From the NCBI RefSeq assembly GCF_024448895.1, contig NZ_JAMOIC010000001.1:62001-126000 (forward strand): a stretch of DNA of 64,000 nt, written 5' to 3'. The first letter of the stretch is position 1. Each line of letters opens with the position of its first letter. Origin of the DNA: Stutzerimonas stutzeri. GTDB lineage: Bacteria > Pseudomonadota > Gammaproteobacteria > Pseudomonadales > Pseudomonadaceae. The position numbers and the translations under genes are program-made. The notes beneath the pieces were generated by a model. It worked only from the letters and a program-made list of their open reading frames with translations. It was not told where the DNA came from and ran no database searches. Positions 56,070 to 64,000 of this stretch are shown here, in pieces.

Positions 56070-57464
56070 GTGGCAAAGTTGACGGCGAAGCTACTCGAGG
56101 CGCTTACATCTGCCGATGACGGCCGGATCCTTCGTGAGGCTGGCGGTCTGGTTGCCAGGGTCCGTGCGGGCGTCCGTGGGGTAACAGTCCAGTTCCGCTA
56201 TGAATTCAAACAAGACGGACTGAAGCGTGATCAAAGCCTGGGCAGTTGGCCAAAGAAGTCTCTTGCCCAGATTCGTTCCGAACGTGATGAGGTTAAAGCG
56301 ACAGCCTCCAAAGGCATCGATCCAACCGCTGCCCGCAAAGCTGCCAAGATCGAAGCTCAAGCTGCAATCGCAGCTACTATCGCGGAAGCTGAACGCCATG
56401 CCGCCGAAAACAAGACGGTGGCTGACCTGTTTGACGAATGGATTCGTGACGGCGTCTCCCGCCAAGACGGCAATGCCGAGCTGATCCGCAGCTTTAATAA
56501 GGACGTCCTGCCGCTCCTTGGCAAGAAACCACTGCGCAGCCTGACCGAAAAAGATCTGCTCGCGGTGCTGCGCTCAGTCAAAGCCCGCGGTCTGAATCGC
56601 ACCGTCGTCATCCGCAACAACGACATTGGCCAGATGCTGCGCTGGGGTGAAAAACGGAAACCCTGGCGAGGCCTGATGAGTGACGGTAATCCAGCCGACC
56701 TTATAGATGTCAGCAAGCTGCTCGATCACAATTATGAAGAACAACGCGACCGCCTGCTCTCCCCCGACGAGATTCGCGAGTTGCGTGACATCCTCGAACG
56801 CCTAGAGAAAGACTACGAAGAGCTTCCCGCTGGCCAGAAGTATTCCGGCATTCGCCCGGTCAACCCGCGAGTCCAGTGCGCTCTATGGATCTGCCTGAGC
56901 ACCCTCTGCCGTATCGGCGAGCTACTTAAGGCCGAGTGGCGCTACCTGAACCTGGAGAAAGGCACCTGGTTCATCCCCGCCGAGGCTACCAAAGGCCATA
57001 AAGGTAAACGCCAAGATCACCATGTGTTCCTGTCAGCGTTCGCCATAGAGCAATTCAAGCGTCTGCAAAAAGAGACCGGCCATACACCGTTCTGCTTTCC
57101 CAGCAAGGACAACCAAAGCCATGTCAACACCAAGACAGTAAGCAAACTCATCGGCGATCGCCAGTGCCTCTTCAAGAACCGCAGCAAGCCCCTCGCTGGC
57201 CGGCATCATGACGATTCACTGGTACTGAGCAAAGGAATCAGAGGTGAATGGACGCCGCATGATCTGCGCCGCACCGGCTCGACCATGATGCAGGAGTTGG
57301 GCGTGACGCTGGAAATCATCGATCGTTGCCAGAACCACCTGCTGGGCGGCTCCAAGGTGCGCCGGCATTACCTGCACCATGATTATGCCAAGGAAAAGAC
57401 CGAAGCATGGCGGTTGCTTGGGGAGAAACTGGAGTCGATTCTAACCGAAGGTGCAGCAGCTTAG
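56070..57464 (+). CDS. int: P4-type tyrosine integrase of the island
   Basis: A 464-residue site-specific recombinase starting with GTG after GGGGTAGAGG. An N-terminal DUF4102-type arm-binding domain (LTAKLLEALTSADDGRILRE) precedes a SAM-like core-binding domain (about 110-200) and the catalytic domain: Arg in STLCRIGELLKAEW, His-x-x-Arg in TPHDLRRTGSTMM and Tyr nucleophile in RRHYLHHDY. All catalytic residues are present, so it is probably active. Adjacent to the tRNA-Pro att site, its presumed target. Confidence 0.93.
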   Translation: MAKLTAKLLEALTSADDGRILREAGGLVARVRAGVRGVTVQFRYEFKQDGLKRDQSLGSWPKKSLAQIRSERDEVKATASKGIDPTAARKAAKIEAQAAIAATIAEAERHAAENKTVADLFDEWIRDGVSRQDGNAELIRSFNKDVLPLLGKKPLRSLTEKDLLAVLRSVKARGLNRTVVIRNNDIGQMLRWGEKRKPWRGLMSDGNPADLIDVSKLLDHNYEEQRDRLLSPDEIRELRDILERLEKDYEELPAGQKYSGIRPVNPRVQCALWICLSTLCRIGELLKAEWRYLNLEKGTWFIPAEATKGHKGKRQDHHVFLSAFAIEQFKRLQKETGHTPFCFPSKDNQSHVNTKTVSKLIGDRQCLFKNRSKPLAGRHHDDSLVLSKGIRGEWTPHDLRRTGSTMMQELGVTLEIIDRCQNHLLGGSKVRRHYLHHDYAKEKTEAWRLLGEKLESILTEGAAA

Positions 57465-57466
57465 AC

Positions 57467-57740
57467 TCAGTAGCCCGCTTGCTTTTGGTGGCGGAAGGCT
57501 AGGACATACGCAGTATCGTCCGTGCACTCATACCGGTAGAGCGCGGCGTACCCTGAGTCACCGAACTCAATGATCAGCCCACGCAGCTGCGGTAGATCTG
57601 GAAATGGACGCCCTACTTCCAGGCGAGCTAACTGGCGCTCATTCACCTGCGCAGCGCGCCGTGCAAACCAGCGGATATTTATCGGCAAGAAATCGTCGGC
57701 ATCGCTCCAAGCCCTTCGCCGCACCTTCAGTGACAATCAA
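57467..57740 (-). pseudogene. ParE/RelE-type toxin gene with a +1 frameshift
   Basis: From a TTG at 57740 (overlapping the antitoxin stop as TTGA) the frame reads MIVTEGAAKGLERCRRFLAD, the conserved start of this toxin family, but reaches a stop after 33 codons. The family's remainder (ARRAAQV, then GRPFPDLPQLRG, IIEFGDSGYAALYRY, VLAFRHQKQAGY) is in the next frame. Removing one T from the TTT at 57665-57667 would restore a 90-residue toxin. It is probably inactive unless ribosomes slip or the base is a sequencing error. Confidence 0.8.
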
Positions 57741-58009
57741 TCGTGGCACTTGGGAAGCTCTACCTCAGCATCTGTACCCCAGCTACCAAGCCAGGTGCGA
57801 GCCCCTTGGCTGGTCAAATGCCGGCCGGTTTCCTGATACGCCGCCCATGTCGCCAGCGCTTCCTGCTTGAAGCTCTCACGCGCCTCCTCACGCTCGACGT
57901 ACTGCGTGATCGCCTCGCGCATGATCCAGTGAGACGAGCGCTGGCGTTGGCTCGCCAACTGCTGAATGCGGCCTTTTAGCTCGTCATCCATTTTGATGGA
58001 AGTGGCCAT
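57737..58009 (-). CDS. Ribbon-helix-helix antitoxin of the ParDE-like pair
   Basis: A 90-residue protein: N-terminal RHH fold MATSIKMDDELKGRIQQLAS followed by RSSHWIMREAITQYV, and a C-terminal toxin-binding segment (ESFKQEALATWAAYQETGRHL). The ATG at 58009 follows AGAGGG. It would bind its own promoter and neutralise the toxin encoded downstream with a 4-bp overlap. It remains intact while the toxin is broken. Confidence 0.88.
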   Translation of the reverse strand: MATSIKMDDELKGRIQQLASQRQRSSHWIMREAITQYVEREEARESFKQEALATWAAYQETGRHLTSQGARTWLGSWGTDAEVELPKCHD

Positions 58010-58028
58010 GGTAAGCCCTCTTTTATCG

Positions 58029-58043
58029 AAAGGTATTACCTTT
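58029..58043. promoter_or_regulatory. Probable operator of the toxin-antitoxin operon
   Basis: A perfect 15-bp palindrome (AAAGGTA-T-TACCTTT) 20 bp upstream of the antitoxin start, the expected place for an autoregulatory RHH-antitoxin site. Confidence 0.65.
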
Positions 58044-58582
58044 GAATAACGTAGCAGCAGACGTACAAAGCTGTCCATCCGATACTCACAAACAGGTTGC
58101 GATGATGGAGGCTAGGCAAGGTTCACTCGCACCGGAATGACATCCTCACTCGCGTGGGCTTTTTTCCTTCTGCCAGCTCGAAATCGTCTAGGCGCTCCAT
58201 CAACAGCTCAGCATGCACCATGTACCCATCACGCGACGGTGATAGGCATGCCCGATGCGCAGGCCAGGGTGCAGATATATTTTTTCTCCAGCTCAGAACT
58301 GCGGACAGCTACGTCAGCCAAGATCGGTTGTATAGCAAATCCTCACAACCTCGTTACTGGCTGCTTCCGGGCCGTTAGCGGCACTGTTCGATATCTGGGG
58401 ATTGAGGTCGATGACGCCCTAGAGATGGCGGAACAGACCGAGGCTTGACCATGCACAGCGACGGTCGAAGTCAGGCCGTCGCTAACCGGCCAGAAGCGGA
58501 CAGTGAACTCGATAAATAAACTTGCCCCTTTTTCTCCCTTTCCGATATGCGTGTTTTTCGACTCGATATTAATGCGCAATAA
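58044..58582. other. Degenerate stretch left of the radical SAM module
   Basis: About 540 bp without a supportable gene. The right part (58370-58509) contains a recombinase remnant and hairpin described separately; the rest has no recognisable content. Confidence 0.5.
58375..58509 (+). repeat. Direct repeat copy A: recombinase C-terminal remnant plus hairpin
   Basis: One frame ends VRYLGIEVDDALEMAEQTEA-stop, which resembles the C-terminus (with catalytic Tyr) of XerC/D-like tyrosine recombinases. It is followed by an imperfect hairpin (AGCGACGGTC...GCCGTCGCT) and ACCGGCCA. About 74% identical over 53 bases to the copy at 61011, before counting the shared hairpin. No complete recombinase gene is present. 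Confidence 0.55.
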
Positions 58583-59881
58583 TCACTTTGCCCCATCACA
58601 AGTTAATTCAATTCTATGTCCCTCGAAAGCCTGCACAGGAATATTGCCTCGCATCGACGCCTCGAACTCACTAAGAGTTCTCATATAGATAGGAAGCCCC
58701 GCGCAATCTTTTTTTCCTGTATCTACAATTCCGTCAAAGTATACTGGTGAGTACAAGCCATGCTCTCCGCACCATATTGCTCTAAGGTATGCAATCCATT
58801 TGACTGACTCCACATCAGTCTTCTCGATGCGAGACTTGGAATTTAAATAAGTGGAAATCGAGTGCTGCGGCATCCACTCCCCTAACAGCTCTTCGAACGT
58901 AACCAATTCACCAATCGCTTTCTTTTTAGCTAAAGACACAATATTGGCAGAAAAGAAACTGGCATCTTTTAAGTATAAGTCCGAAGCACTGCAGCAGGAT
59001 TTTCCATCAGAGTGCAGGAGCAATTCATTGTCGGCGAAACCAAATGTGAGCCCGGCCAGCTTGGTTTGATTTCGCATATGAATCAAGTGGGCGGAACGAT
59101 AGAATAATGGAAGGATGTATTCGCTTCCATGCTTGCGGGCTCCAAGAGATATATACTTAGAAACCGGCTGCCCATCTAATAGCTCTGAAAGCGCAGGGCT
59201 AAAGTTGACATTTCCCTCCAAGGGAACCTTTAAATACTCTGCTGATATATGCTTGACCCCTGTATCTCGAGCCAGGCTCAGAAGTCTATCGAATCCCTCT
59301 TCGGATCCAGGAATTATCGGTTGCAAACGAAAACTGACCGGAATGTTGAGCGAAGACAATCTTTCGGCAGCGTTAGCAATATCTTGTATAGGGGAGCATC
59401 CCTTGTCTATGGATGCCCTAATCTGCTCATCGACTACAGTTGTCGAAAATCGAACGTAACCATTGGAGTCGCTTAGTGCATCTGCATATTCAATAGTCGC
59501 TGGAAGGCAGCTTTTCGTACTGACTATAAACGGGTAGTTATGCTCGTTAAGAATTCGTATGTACTGAAGTGTCCGCCTTTCCTTTATTTCAATGGGGGAG
59601 AATGGATCAGACATCCCGCCCATCTGGAAAGGAACCCTCATCAAAATAAACTCATCAAGCGCAGACCGAATTATCCCATTAGAAACTCGCTCAAGGCGCT
59701 TGCGCAAAGACTCCGGGTTAGCAATTTGTAGCTTTTCATCACGCCCATAGCCTGCGCGGGTACGTGCAAAACAGTATCCGCAGCTAAATTGACAATGGTT
59801 ATAACTATCAAGCCTAAGCGGTGTTGCGCAAAAAGCGAGCTGACTAGTTATCGAGGCAGAGTATTTGTAAATTTTTCTCAT
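58583..59881 (-). CDS. Radical SAM protein, spore-photoproduct-lyase-like (COG1533 type)
   Basis: A 432-residue protein with radical SAM cluster motif C30-x3-C34-x2-C37 (SYNHCQFSCGYCFAR) and the SPL-family block MGGMSDPFSPIE (about 87-98). A TIM-barrel pattern (FIVSTKSC, VRFSTTV, VSFRLQPIIPGSEEG) follows. The C-terminal third is not one I know: a Cys-Cys pair (296-297), later Cys371 and Cys393 and an aromatic-rich region. Clearly AT-rich. Its ATG overlaps the upstream membrane gene's stop (ATGA), so the two form one unit. Substrate unknown; a nucleic-acid or peptide modification is possible. Confidence 0.85.
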   Translation of the reverse strand: MRKIYKYSASITSQLAFCATPLRLDSYNHCQFSCGYCFARTRAGYGRDEKLQIANPESLRKRLERVSNGIIRSALDEFILMRVPFQMGGMSDPFSPIEIKERRTLQYIRILNEHNYPFIVSTKSCLPATIEYADALSDSNGYVRFSTTVVDEQIRASIDKGCSPIQDIANAAERLSSLNIPVSFRLQPIIPGSEEGFDRLLSLARDTGVKHISAEYLKVPLEGNVNFSPALSELLDGQPVSKYISLGARKHGSEYILPLFYRSAHLIHMRNQTKLAGLTFGFADNELLLHSDGKSCCSASDLYLKDASFFSANIVSLAKKKAIGELVTFEELLGEWMPQHSISTYLNSKSRIEKTDVESVKWIAYLRAIWCGEHGLYSPVYFDGIVDTGKKDCAGLPIYMRTLSEFEASMRGNIPVQAFEGHRIELTCDGAK

Positions 59882-60627
59882 TCAAAGGTATTCAACAAAA
59901 ACTGGCAAAGATACATAAAGCCGCTTGCTACGTGTTGAAACAAAACAAATATAAATGCCAATAGACTCAGGTAAATGAATAGCCTTATAAGGTTCCTAGC
60001 CCAAATTTTCGAGCTGGAGTACCGCCCAAAAATTTCCCAGAATATGGCTCGCTCAGCATCTTTGTCCGCCTCGCTATCTCCTAACCTAGGCATCCCTAAA
60101 GAATAGATTTTTCCCTCAAACTCCATGTACGCAATTGTCTGGAGAGGGTCGACTTTAATCTTTTCCAGAGGCATAATAAAATCGTTCTCATGCTCTGTAA
60201 GATATCCCTTCGTCTTTAGTCTGGTAAGGAATTTTTTAGAATCAGCTCCCTCGTCAATCAAGCTCTTCGCAAGCCAAGATATCCAGCGCCTATCGTGACC
60301 ATAACTCAGGTAGTCTGAAAATCTATTGTATTGCTTGATGAATGAGGGACAGTATTTCAAATAAACAACAAAGGAGATCAGGAATAAAAATGAAGAAAGC
60401 CAAAGGATCTGCCAGTTAAATGGTAAAGAAAGCTCAATTTCATATGTGATTCCATTTATGCTCAGCGGGAGGGGGTCAGGCAGCCCATAGAGAATCCCTG
60501 CAGCAATTGGGACGATTGAAAACCAAACCGTTAAATAGCGAAATATTGTAATTTGATAAAAGCTCTTGTACGCCTCCCAGCGTGGAGGATTACAAAGCCA
60601 ATCCCAAGCTAGAGTTATTAGCTTCAC
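59878..60627 (-). CDS. Hypothetical membrane protein coupled to the radical SAM gene
   Basis: A 249-residue protein starting with GTG eight bases after GAGGAG. TM helices are near residues 29-48 (LTVWFSIVPIAAGILYGL), 74-93 and 213-240. Between them is a soluble domain of about 110 residues with a winged-helix-like stretch (KFLTRLKTKGYLTEHENDF). AT-rich like its partner. No family recognised. The 4-bp overlap with the radical SAM gene suggests a membrane-tethered two-component module. Confidence 0.8.
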   Translation of the reverse strand: MKLITLAWDWLCNPPRWEAYKSFYQITIFRYLTVWFSIVPIAAGILYGLPDPLPLSINGITYEIELSLPFNWQILWLSSFLFLISFVVYLKYCPSFIKQYNRFSDYLSYGHDRRWISWLAKSLIDEGADSKKFLTRLKTKGYLTEHENDFIMPLEKIKVDPLQTIAYMEFEGKIYSLGMPRLGDSEADKDAERAIFWEIFGRYSSSKIWARNLIRLFIYLSLLAFIFVLFQHVASGFMYLCQFLLNTFE

Positions 60628-61010
60628 TTTGGGTCTCCTCGGCAGGTCGCTTTTTACACCATTATAAATCCTACCAGATGGGGCACGCTTTTATCTAGCG
60701 TGGCTATTCCGGCTATGGAGTTCCGCACTGCCCAGAACAGCCGCACGCTGTCATTGACCAGACGATGATGGCAATGTGGTTCTCGCTAATCTCGTCGAGA
60801 TTAGCGACCAGTCATCGGCATCGTCGCTCCTCGACCCGGAGCAATAATGCGTGGTTTGGGTCGAACCTTCCTAAAGCGTGCCAGTCGTGGCGTAGCCTTC
60901 TCGTGTGTCCGCTCTTGGCCTTTAGCGACTGTCGCCATGACGGCTCATTCTTGGCTTCCCTCAAGAGGAGGCTAAGCCATGAAAACCATCAATATCCAAT
61001 GCCACCAACC
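60628..61010. other. Degenerate stretch right of the radical SAM module
   Basis: No supportable gene. It contains the long palindrome at 60784-60806 and short islands resembling the intergenic tail of the recombinase remnant (TTAGCGAC, GACCCGGAGC). Confidence 0.5.
60784..60806. repeat. Perfect 11-bp inverted repeat inside a longer imperfect hairpin
   Basis: CGCTAATCTCG and its exact complement around a single T. The arms extend imperfectly outward (GACGATG on the left, CATCGTC on the right), giving a hairpin of about 70 bases. It could be a recombination site, transposon end or strong RNA hairpin. Confidence 0.6.
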
Positions 61011-61126
61011 TTGGAATTGAGGTAGCCGGTGCTCTATAGATGGCTGAACAAACTGAGGTCTGATGAGGCTTAGCGACGGTCGAACCAGACGGTCGCTATC
61101 CGGCCAAAGGAGACGCAGGGATTCAT
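61011..61126 (+). repeat. Direct repeat copy B: recombinase C-terminal remnant plus hairpin
   Basis: Same order as copy A: a decayed coding end (LGIEVAGAL-stop-MAEQTEV-stop), then the hairpin AGCGACGGTC...GACGGTCGCT and ATCCGGCCA. Same orientation as copy A; together they enclose the radical SAM/membrane pair. Confidence 0.55.
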
Positions 61127-61226
61127 CGACGAAGCCACGATGATCAAGCAGATCCATATTTCGCTCCACTTTCAAATCTACGACTACATTCTCTATACCG
61201 AGCAAGGAAGCAAAAAGGAGCGGACC

Positions 61227-62354
61227 GTGGCTAATCGAAACAACAAGAAATTACGTGCATTCGTCGCCCCACTGGTGGCTGCAGGAATGCTCGTAGGGTG
61301 TGTCAGCGCTCCGCAGCTTCCATATGCATCTAGTGAGGCGCCTATTGTCTCTCTTCCGCTGGCTGCAGCTGGAGTGGCAGACGGCCGTAATGTCTTCGCA
61401 CGTAATTTCGCTGCGGAACTAGCGTCGTCAGCACTATATGGCGCGAAAGAACCCGCGAAGTGGACTCACTGGCCACCAGCTCTCCCTTCCCTCTACTCAG
61501 CGCCACCATTACGCGGTGTATCAGTGCTGGTGGTCCCCGGCATCTTTGGCGACTGCGTGGCAGACCAATCGCTTCCGTTCAGCGACGGAGTCACTAGGAC
61601 TGCAACTGCAAACTTGAAGGAAGGATATGCCTACTTAGCCCCGTCGGGTCTACAGCACGTCCGTGCAATTAATGTTCGAGGTAGGGCGTCCTCAGAGGCA
61701 AATGGCGCAGTCATCGCCGCAGCTATTCGCCGTGAGTCAGAAGACCCCGCTGTAGCGCGCATCATTGTGGTCGGCTACTCGAAAGGTGTTCCCGACACCC
61801 TGCATGCACTGGAGCGACTTGGGGCCAGTGGACTACCGCAACAGCCGCTATCGTTCGTTTCTTTGTCAGGTGTAGTGATGGGCACGCCAATCGCCGATAC
61901 CCATGAAGTGCTCTACAAGCGGCTTGCCACTCGATTCGACGGGTTGCAATGCTCACCCTCAGACGGCCAAGAGGTAACGAGCCTCACGAGACGTGAGCGT
62001 CGGCGTTGGCTAGCAAGCCACCCACGATTTCCAGGCATAAGCCTGTACACAGTTGTGGCACACACAAATGCCAAATCGATCTCTCCGGGGCTAATTCCTT
62101 TCTACCGAAGATTGGCTAAGGCTGATCTACGCAATGATGGCCAAGTTCTCGCCTCTGATGCGGTCCTCCCCGGCTCCACACTGCTTGCAGAGGTGAACTC
62201 AGATCATTGGACCTACGTATTGCCCTTGCGAGACCACCCCAACTGGCTAGTGCGTTCTGCGGCAGCCGACCACCGATATCCCCGCGCGGAATTCTTCCGT
62301 GCTCTGGTACGCACAGTAGTTGAACTAGAAACAACGAGAGAGGGGGCAAAATGA
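61227..62354 (+). CDS. Alpha/beta hydrolase lipoprotein
   Basis: 375 residues from a GTG at 61227, six bases after AAGGAG; the frame is open further upstream but without a ribosome site. Lipoprotein signal ends LVGC (Cys25). Hydrolase features: VLVVPGIFGDCVAD, nucleophile elbow VVGYSKGVPDTL (Ser185), a possible Asp in NDGQVLASD and His in NSDHWTYVLPL. Envelope-located esterase/lipase-like activity is inferred. Followed after 162 bp by a second lipoprotein enzyme. Confidence 0.82.
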   Translation: MANRNNKKLRAFVAPLVAAGMLVGCVSAPQLPYASSEAPIVSLPLAAAGVADGRNVFARNFAAELASSALYGAKEPAKWTHWPPALPSLYSAPPLRGVSVLVVPGIFGDCVADQSLPFSDGVTRTATANLKEGYAYLAPSGLQHVRAINVRGRASSEANGAVIAAAIRRESEDPAVARIIVVGYSKGVPDTLHALERLGASGLPQQPLSFVSLSGVVMGTPIADTHEVLYKRLATRFDGLQCSPSDGQEVTSLTRRERRRWLASHPRFPGISLYTVVAHTNAKSISPGLIPFYRRLAKADLRNDGQVLASDAVLPGSTLLAEVNSDHWTYVLPLRDHPNWLVRSAAADHRYPRAEFFRALVRTVVELETTREGAK

Positions 62355-62366
62355 AGCCTAGACCCT

Positions 62367-62472
62367 ATGCATCTGATGCACCGCTACAACTGGATCCGTC
62401 CGCAACAATTCACGACGGGTGACCGCCTGCGGTGGCCGAAGAAAAACTCAACCCACTGTCCGGGATGGCTTG
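62367..62472 (+). pseudogene. Possible IS3-family transposase C-terminal remnant
   Basis: Across one frameshift the stretch reads MHRYNWIRPQQFTTG then PPAVAEEKLNPLSGMA, resembling the last residues of IS3-type OrfB (YNxxRPHQ...PPAxAEEKL...SGI). It is short and the resemblance is from memory, so treat as tentative. It fills most of the gap between the two lipoprotein genes. Confidence 0.35.
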
Positions 62473-62516
62473 CCCACTACAGTACAAATCGCACGCTCTG
62501 AAGGTGGAAAAGACAC

Positions 62517-64000
62517 ATGAACAATCACGCTTTAGCGCGCATAAGCGTCGCACTCTTTTTATCCGTTCTGGCGGGATGCAACTCGACTATTCGAGTTCGG
62601 CCGGATTCTCCATCTGCCACGCCGATTGCCGTTGGCGACTTCCCCACGGCCGTCGTCTACTTCATGGCCGACAATCAGGAGAGGGAGCTGTTCGGCGACC
62701 CGACGTATTACTCGTCGCGCCTTGCGCAAGACACCAGCGACGTCGCCATTCGCTCCGTCGAGCAGGATCTCTACACCAAGTATGTTGCCGAGTCGGTGAT
62801 GCGGCGGATCACTCAGCAAGACGGGAATCCCCCGGTGATCCACCTAGGCGATCTTTTGGACTATTCATGCCATTCCGAATTTAAGCGCCTTCAGCGCTTT
62901 TCCTTTCTATCCGCTCCAAACGTCTACATTGCCAAAGGTAATCACGATGGCATTTTTCAGGGGAACATGAGCTACGGCGGGTGGATCGGAGCGGCTTGGC
63001 TGTACATCCGAAAAATCACTGTCAACCACAGCATCGACCCCTCACTTGAGGGGCACTTCAACGCCGTCTGCGGCCAGCTAGATGGCAACCCGCTTGCATC
63101 TGATGCCAATAGACTGCGTCCATTTCCAGATGCCCGCGAATGGCCGCACCAGTTCAACTGTGACTACTTGCGGTTGAAGAGCGCCGGAAAACTCCCATTT
63201 GCTATTGAGACGTTTTGCAACGACTCGGACTACCACCGACGCGTGCTCGTGGCCGCGGGCAAAAAAACACCCCCGCTCGCTAACTCGCGGCTGACTGTCC
63301 GCACCCCATATGAGTACACAGCAATCATGAACACCGGCAACTCGGTGAATAAATGGAACAAGGGCTCGCTGCTCCAATCCGTACGCGTCCCACTAAAGCA
63401 GCTTGGCAATGCCACCAGTGCGGAGCTTGGTGTAATCTTGCTCGACACAACGGATTGGCCCAGCGTGCCGAGCTTTAAGTTTCTGTCGAAAAAGTCGAAC
63501 TCCAATGTTGGCACTATTCGCCAAGGCCAGCGTGACCTCGTCCTTGAGCAGCTTAAGTCATGGTGGGACGACCCGAAGCGCAGCGTCAAGGCTGTGGTAC
63601 TTACCGGCCACTATCCGCTTCGCGCGCTTGACCGCAGCTCGGCACGGTGGATGCTAAAGCTACGCGACGATTTCCCCTTCGTGGCCCCTGTTTACTTCAG
63701 TGCGCATACTCACGAGGGGTACACCGCTGTCGGCGACGACCAGGAAGTGTCGAATGGCGTGATCCGGGAGATCAACGTCGGCTCGCTCATTGATGCGCCC
63801 GTCCACTACCGTAAAGCGATCTTCAGCTGGGACGCAGAACATTCGCGCTTGCTGCTTACATCTGAACTGCGTACCCCCTGGACGGAACTGAAATGTGCGG
63901 CCGATGGATCGCCACAAGCCAAAGCAGCTGCGGCTGGCCGGGCGTCAGCCGAAACATATGCCAACCGCAAACGCTTTAAGCCGCAACGGCAATGGTGCGA
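62517..64000 (+). CDS. Metallophosphoesterase lipoprotein (3' end outside window)
   Basis: At least 494 codons, open to the window edge. Lipoprotein signal MNNHALARISVALFLSVLAGC (Cys21). Calcineurin-like motifs in order: VVYFMADNQ (first motif, His absent), HLGDLLD (about 110), AKGNHDG (about 140), LTGHYP (about 364) and SAHTHEG (about 396). The spacing shows a large insert between GNHD and GHYP. An envelope phosphodiesterase or nucleotidase is likely; substrate unknown. The overlapping frame at 62432-62884 is a shadow. Confidence 0.83.
   Translation, partial: MNNHALARISVALFLSVLAGCNSTIRVRPDSPSATPIAVGDFPTAVVYFMADNQERELFGDPTYYSSRLAQDTSDVAIRSVEQDLYTKYVAESVMRRITQQDGNPPVIHLGDLLDYSCHSEFKRLQRFSFLSAPNVYIAKGNHDGIFQGNMSYGGWIGAAWLYIRKITVNHSIDPSLEGHFNAVCGQLDGNPLASDANRLRPFPDAREWPHQFNCDYLRLKSAGKLPFAIETFCNDSDYHRRVLVAAGKKTPPLANSRLTVRTPYEYTAIMNTGNSVNKWNKGSLLQSVRVPLKQLGNATSAELGVILLDTTDWPSVPSFKFLSKKSNSNVGTIRQGQRDLVLEQLKSWWDDPKRSVKAVVLTGHYPLRALDRSSARWMLKLRDDFPFVAPVYFSAHTHEGYTAVGDDQEVSNGVIREINVGSLIDAPVHYRKAIFSWDAEHSRLLLTSELRTPWTELKCAADGSPQAKAAAAGRASAETYANRKRFKPQRQWC

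Follow-up and report, generated by a model that had tools for sequence, protein, structure and literature searches.

The 64-kb window of Stutzerimonas stutzeri analysed here (the whole stretch of 64,000 nucleotides) carries, on its minus strand at positions 58583-60627, two overlapping genes, which code for a membrane protein (termed MP) and a radical SAM protein (termed rSAM). We are inclined to regard the pair as a compact mobile two-gene exclusion module, probably directed against phages, in which MP would act as inner-membrane effector or anchor and rSAM as enzymatic switch. Defence as the function of the pair, taken alone, is judged to be fairly probable from the sequence data. The two genes are strictly linked, are under purifying selection, deviate in GC content, travel on several kinds of mobile carriers and have defence neighbours at three loci, and this combination points to an exclusion-type cargo module.

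Coordinates, strand and the short overlap are as described in the initial annotation. MP (59878..60627, minus strand) starts with GTG and has 249 residues. rSAM (58583..59881, minus strand) starts with ATG and has 432 residues. The stop codon of MP and the start codon of rSAM share the 4 bp ATGA (59878..59881, minus strand); the junction has the sequence TTTGAATGAGAAA, and the letters across it are also given as TTTGAATGAG. Translational coupling of the two genes via this overlap is likely. A Shine-Dalgarno-like GAGGAGA (60634..60640, minus strand) is found 6 nt ahead of the GTG of MP. The pair is indeed AT-rich, with a GC content of 43.6% as compared to 57.8% for the window. Both frames are kept even by relatives with no more than about 40%/28% identity, and the phage loci L006 and L008 show purifying selection between them, with nonsynonymous and synonymous substitution rates of dN 0.011/dS 0.231 for rSAM and dN 0.054/dS 0.238 for MP. 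Both genes are thus considered to be real. Between the window and locus L001, synonymous sites are saturated.

Contig searches led by rSAM retrieved two loci from genomes (L001 from Pseudomonas putida 17522, 78% identity; L002 from an Oceanospirillales metagenome-assembled genome, 50%) and four from viral contigs (L005-L008, 53%). When a profile of the C-terminal third of rSAM was applied to 293 genomes of the order, it detected the own locus, genome G1386 (locus L033) and one weak match (G078, E 7.6e-4), which was rejected as it is not an rSAM protein. There are 8 convincing loci from these rSAM-led searches if the window is included (7 without it), and MP is located directly upstream of rSAM in all of them. 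A predominance of rSAM genes without the membrane partner, on which the proposed pairing could have failed, was not encountered. An MP-led search added locus L032 (G1065; 41%/28% identity). In all nine loci with a long-form MP, the window and eight others, the two genes are direct neighbours in the same order. The 4-bp overlap recurs in L002, L032 and L033, the overlap is 1 bp in L001, and gaps of 19-22 nt separate the genes in L005-L008, where start codons were picked by alignment; a longer rSAM frame in L005 would overlap MP. The independence of the nine loci is reduced because the proteins of L006 and L007 look identical and rSAM of L008 is 97% identical to that of L006. Five clusters fall below 60% rSAM identity to each other: the window with L001, L002, L005-L008, L032, and L033. 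The distance matrices of MP and rSAM are strongly correlated (r = 0.986, Mantel p = 0.00035; 20,000 permutations, 8 pairs, L007 left out).

The search patterns reach close relatives best, and distant rSAM relatives without MP may be missed. Relatives that share only the core with rSAM and resemble PA0069 (in the own genome, in 15 plasmid records and in one phage record) represent a different family. For the plasmid and sequenced-phage collections searched, carriage of the rSAM family was rejected, since none of the 15 plasmid records covers 80% of the query, all are below 60% identity, and the phage record matches residues 16-219 only. MP had no match in these collections. The phage version of the pair was searched at the DNA level in E. 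coli and gave no match. Viral scans with rSAM of L033 and L032, with MP of L024 and with A2 gained nothing, and the same holds for plasmid searches with short-form MPs.

L005-L008 are P2-like phage or prophage contigs. In these, the pair is the sole occupant of the region between tail gene S and gene V. It is preceded by 19-21 nt and followed by 57 nt, which leaves no space for an additional gene. Gene names are based on Pfam for S and W of L008 and for V of L005, and on reading for the others. In L005 and L008 the GC content of the pair is 34-35%, as compared to 58-65% in the phage flanks. To survey the slot, 8 annotated P2-like records were inspected, namely P2 and seven selected from the 239 records that match gpS. 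Phages 186, ST13-OXA48phi12.1, Midge and YenM_201.16 have an S-V gap of 68-73 nt and no cargo. The other four carry cargo: Orf30 in P2 (described as 'nonessential'), a YjcF protein in 613R3, an unknown protein in YenM_31.17 and two genes in the Yersinia phage vB_YenM_56.17. The latter two genes (L060:4496-5720), annotated as 'transcriptional repressor' and 'polymerase', match two PADLOC families, HTH_VI with E 6e-36 and RT_VI with E 2.6e-104; we take these names to stand for a retron of type VI. With four records loaded and four having only the short gap, the S-V slot is, judged from these records, an optional cargo site, in one case occupied by defence genes of a known kind. In L005 and L008, the pair qualifies as a prophage moron or cargo, as it consists of genes with deviant GC content between essential phage genes, in a slot that is empty in four of the eight relatives inspected. 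All four phage copies (3 distinct sequences) have a TTGATR-N16-TATAAT site near the end of S, 52-53 nt before MP, which might allow the pair to be expressed in the lysogen. This promoter evidence is weak because the scan performed no better than on shuffled sequences (8 compared to 8.7) and because the site overlaps the S coding sequence. In the window, the equivalent scan found 4 sites (4.5 expected), none of them before MP.

The defence-type niche that had been proposed for the pair is supported by context at several loci. In L033, the pair follows, at a distance of 29 bp, the genes that encode a PDC-S18 protein and HsdS and HsdM of a type I restriction-modification system. The frame for the R subunit, which is upstream, covers positions 471-1166 of the 1170-position REase_I profile, and this gene may be incomplete. 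In L002, the pair adjoins a SIR2 gene (PADLOC SIR2, E 2.7e-28) and a helicase gene of the SLFN group (PDC-S41, E 1.1e-20). In L001, it adjoins an integrase gene, with a primase-polymerase gene further on; the gene ahead of the integrase is presumably dusA.

In the own genome, the pair sits right of gltA. The flank on the gltA side (1946 bases) matches 18 of 19 genomes, the own one included. In the 17 relatives, apart from short scattered pieces, the main matches end by base 1337, at most 65 bases past the gltA stop codon, and the DNA right of the pair (61140-63900) is matched in 5 of 18 relatives only by pieces of 60-112 bases. The region is therefore specific to the own genome up to the right edge of the window. 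Beyond this edge, on the same contig, defence genes were found at G000:C1:130193-151961 (L055, L057), about 8-29 kb from the pair. Their order, going away from the pair, is a PDC-S26 candidate (from 7.6 kb), HamB, HamA, BrxL, PglZ, an Orf5/HEC-06-type gene, PglX, BrxC, BrxB and BrxA (to 29 kb), and by these matches the stretch is a BREX system followed by Hachiman. Ten proteins chosen from the core side of the window (33984-54866) were compared to PADLOC at the same threshold, and none matched.

Membership of rSAM in the radical SAM superfamily is based on the C-x3-C-x2-C motif, present in all eight aligned proteins (the window and seven distinct relatives), and on an N-terminal core homologous to PA0069-type proteins. 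The motif, C30-x3-C34-x2-C37 (59771..59794, minus strand), is intact, as had been noted. The Pfam model Radical_SAM (PF04055) is matched with 27.0 bits (E 5.7e-6; gathering score 29.5) and reaches 27.7 bits for rSAM of L032. The NCBIfam model of the PA0069 family (NF033668) matches residues 25-222 with 55.4 bits (E 5e-15), PHROG 13321, which is of unknown function, matches residues 25-216 (E 3e-11), and a PA0069-like paralog of the own genome (C14) aligns over residues 24-233 only, where 56 of 219 columns are identical (E 9e-13). As the PA0069 model and this paralog both align over the core (approximately residues 24-235), the core is, by homology, of the spore photoproduct lyase (SPL)/PA0069 kind, which agrees with the original description of an SPL-like protein. 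The founding enzyme of the SPL group acts on DNA, and the core resembles enzymes that act on thymine in DNA. The SPL-like blocks GGMSDPF, STK, RFSTT and QP-I-PG are present in most members.

The C-terminal third remains without family assignment and carries extra cysteines, again as described initially. Six cysteines are invariant in all eight aligned proteins, the three of the motif and C18, C296 and C297, with the vicinal pair C296-C297 (58991..58996, minus strand) in the C-terminal third. A second metal site formed by C18, C296 and C297 is probable from this conservation. Several assignments were considered and rejected: membership in the PA0069 family (the 55.4 bits are far below the whole-protein cut-off of 360), in the spore photoproduct lyases (PF20903; 11.8 bits, gathering score 27) and in the radical SAM mobile pair family (TIGR04470; 12.7 bits, cut-off 410), and identity with viperin (NCBIfam viperin 11.5 bits as compared to 180, and no PADLOC match at E <= 1 for rSAM of the window; rSAM of L033 matches PADLOC pVip with E 0.024). 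No SPASM model and no model for ribosomally synthesized and post-translationally modified peptides (RiPPs) matched in Pfam and NCBIfam at E <= 1. A sequence search of the PDB returned nothing credible; matches of the family profile to fimbrial chaperones (E 0.02-0.03) and those of A5 (E >= 0.63) were judged to be due to chance. A match to a characterised enzyme over the full length, which would have spoken against an unassigned module, was thus not found, and the matches in Pfam and NCBIfam are confined to the core. A weak similarity to Pfam DUF1848 (PF08902) was observed as well, for residues 18-39 in the window (E 0.31) and for residues 116-206 in L032 (E 0.0011), which hints at a distant tie between rSAM and this domain.

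For MP, hydropathy predicts transmembrane (TM) segments at residues 28-46, 72-90 and 213-231, which bears out the three segments and the soluble middle domain of the initial annotation. The middle loop of 122 residues carries 20 K/R, and for this reason the N-terminus and the middle domain are probably cytoplasmic. Three segments are predicted for 12 of 13 members of the MP family, and two for L034 at the same threshold. At E <= 1, MP matches none of the families in Pfam, NCBIfam, PADLOC and PHROG, and in the wider MP alignment no Pfam family matched more than two of nine members even at E 5. At E <= 0.001, MP profiles are matched in 1 of 56, 9 of 398, 2 of 369, 2 of 398 and 4 of 390 genomes in five overlapping samples, the own genome being positive in each; among the 56 genomes of its genus, it is the only one. 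Long-form MPs occur in the own genome, in G339 (apparently the L001 contig), in G1065 (L032) and in G1386 (L033). Short-form relatives of 192-210 residues were found in G246, G310, G480, G1355 and G1435 (loci L022-L024, L034 and L035), and a relative of rSAM is absent at all five of these loci. Long and short forms align (hhalign 99.1%, E 8.7e-19, a score which membrane composition may inflate), and their homology is supported by the shared motifs W..F.VP, LPFSW, CP..I and FW. Four of the short-form genes stand alone (L022:8382-8960, L023:8552-9136, L034:7503-8135 and L035:7794-8396). The fifth, in L024, shares 1 bp with the latter of two pieces of an open reading frame, of which the first encodes a NACHT domain (28.8 bits as compared to a cut-off of 26.7); the NACHT gene and the short form together are at L024:6502-8941. 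A stretch of N in the record breaks the NACHT gene, and a P2 gpA-type gene adjoins. It is possible that the NACHT gene and the short-form MP make up a second system using this membrane family. Five weak matches to MP in one genus (G087, G108, G122, G136 and G149; E 4.7e-5 to 9.1e-4) were dropped, as they sit in frames of 380-447 residues; the one from G087, the only one of the five for which the neighbourhood was read, looks like a multi-pass transporter.

If the pair is an exclusion module, MP would be embedded in the inner membrane with its N-terminus inside, two TM segments, a cytoplasmic domain of about 120 residues and a final TM segment. rSAM would be the enzymatic partner that holds or sets the state of MP. 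In the likeliest order of events, rSAM would meet an infection cue first and would then switch MP through its C-terminal third, a product or a modification, and the switched MP would disturb the membrane and so stop the infection. MP is taken as the membrane effector because TM partners in known systems are believed to be effectors, according to the portion of PMC9122126 at hand. The phage version has no room for a third gene, and hence a protein substrate encoded by the module must be MP; otherwise the substrate would be derived from host or phage. A more far-reaching version is doubtful in our view, namely that the pair represents a second, viperin-independent radical SAM immune chemistry. 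Here an enzyme of the SPL type, probably equipped with an additional metal site, would recognise phage-derived or modified DNA, or make a radical-derived signal, and would thereby gate a dedicated three-helix membrane effector, with the same effector family also wired to a NACHT sensor, i.e. one fold with interchangeable sensors.

Three rival readings were considered. rSAM might be a maturase that modifies MP, for example at a residue of the cytoplasmic domain, and MP so modified would be the functional membrane protein, serving defence or a different moron role, for instance superinfection exclusion when DNA enters the cell. This would fit with MP being the sole protein substrate encoded by the module in the four P2-like contigs, and the available part of PMC7159879 proposes that a radical SAM domain from a different conflict system modifies a separately encoded peptide effector. 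It would also fit with the long-form MP occurring only with rSAM (9 of 9) and the short forms only without it (5 of 5). However, the core is of a kind whose founding enzyme acts on DNA, and SPASM and RiPP models did not match, so that we consider a maturase unlikely. A RiPP maturase system with a precursor peptide was rejected, as the gaps of 19-21 and 57 nt in the four P2-like contigs, the only ones examined for it, leave no room for the precursor gene. The layout, in which two genes adjoin or overlap each other on mobile DNA, also resembles toxin-antitoxin operons, and the island in the window has a CopG/ParE-like pair as well. Thus, MP could be a membrane toxin which is kept harmless by rSAM and maintains the island or prophage. 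However, an Fe-S enzyme of more than 400 residues is unusual as an antidote and the MP family occurs also without rSAM, which makes such an addiction pair the least probable of the readings considered. Hardly more probable is a lysogenic conversion unrelated to defence, in which a membrane-docked SPL-like enzyme for repair or modification of nucleic acids or cofactors would help a stressed host. The SPL-like blocks are consistent with this, moron genes need not be defensive, the pair of L032 is beside a uvrA-like gene (named by reading), and P2 Orf30, which likewise occupies the S-V slot, had no match among the defence families. On the other hand, several loci have defence genes next to the pair, a retron-type module fills the S-V slot elsewhere, and rSAM is strictly linked to a family-specific membrane protein.

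Several observations weigh against an exclusion module. The pair is rare, with long-form MPs in four genomes across the five overlapping samples. None of the effector families is matched significantly by MP, and the matches to PycTM (E 0.0084, L035) and CARF_TM (E 0.023, L008) are limited to one TM helix region. P2 Orf30 and the YenM_31.17 protein have no PADLOC match at E <= 1, so that of the three other S-V cargoes compared to PADLOC just one matched a defence family. Four of the five short-form MP loci have no defence neighbour by reading, and four neighbour proteins from L022, L023 and L034 have no PADLOC match. The pair of L032 has the uvrA-like gene and ordinary genes as neighbours, among which reading alone revealed no gene for defence or mobility. 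In the own genome, defence genes that are 9-29 kb off the pair are weak evidence if taken alone.

The island around the pair in the window has a tyrosine integrase gene (56070..57464, plus strand; Pfam Arm-DNA-bind_3, Phage_int_M and Phage_integrase). Between integrase and pair, at 57467-58078, a CopG/RHH antitoxin-like gene (113 residues) is accompanied by a weak ParE-like gene (89 residues, 15.3 bits as compared to 23), and from these similarities the two probably form a toxin-antitoxin pair. The pair had been described as standing between repeats. Direct repeats are present (58395..58469 and 61010..61084, both plus strand; 75% identical), but they do not have the appearance of recent att sites, an interpretation which was rejected. 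The first copy is the 3′ end of a multicopy recombinase-like gene, the second comes from a gene of this kind as well and is decayed. This gene of about 206 residues is found at five places on four contigs of the own genome and reads like a tyrosine recombinase (named by reading). It is represented at 58330-58535 in the window, where the first repeat copy is included, and in L052, L053 and L054, with a frame of 206 residues open in L052 and L054.

The initial annotation knew of no described system with this pair, and we also found no published description in the open-licence literature, among the matches listed; a description elsewhere is possible. In PADLOC-DB 2.0.0 (2023), no family matches either window protein at E <= 1, and no family of Pfam, NCBIfam, PADLOC or PHROG spans the full length of either. 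In the parts of the sources available, PMC10250203 mentions a radical SAM gene as the conserved flank of a P. aeruginosa hotspot, the word 'radical' does not occur in PMC13092281, and PMC9519451 describes a second P2 defence locus with fun, also without the word 'radical'. If our reading is correct, the pair would add a new type of enzyme to the modules consisting of an enzyme and a membrane protein, and it would establish a family of membrane proteins that is also associated with a NACHT gene. Being small (2 kb), the pair is directly testable.

Among known families, the pair is related to the PA0069 family (NF033668) and to SPL (PF20903) by the core of rSAM and its C-x3-C-x2-C motif, but rSAM scores below the cut-offs, has an unrelated C-terminal third and a partner in MP, and is mobile. 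Bacterial NACHT (NLR-related) proteins are connected through L024, where a short-form MP relative directly follows a NACHT gene, but in the pair rSAM takes the place of the NTPase and the middle domain of MP is longer. According to the part of PMC12926258 consulted, the established antiviral radical SAM enzymes are the viperins, and the prokaryotic viperins (pVip) share this enzyme type with the pair; rSAM, however, has no significant match to viperin models and has a membrane partner. Other radical SAM domains of conflict systems appear as predictions only in the part of PMC7159879 consulted. A likeness in design is seen to modules from P2/P4 hotspots that combine an enzyme with a TM protein, such as a HAD-like hydrolase with a TM protein and RT-nitrilase with 1TM (Rousset et al. 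2022, PMC9122126, as far as its text was available). These also consist of two genes with a TM partner and are P2/P4-type cargo, but the enzyme of the present pair is a radical SAM protein, MP has no significant PADLOC match, and the site is the S-V slot rather than the replication-portal hotspot of P2 or the psu-int hotspot of P4.

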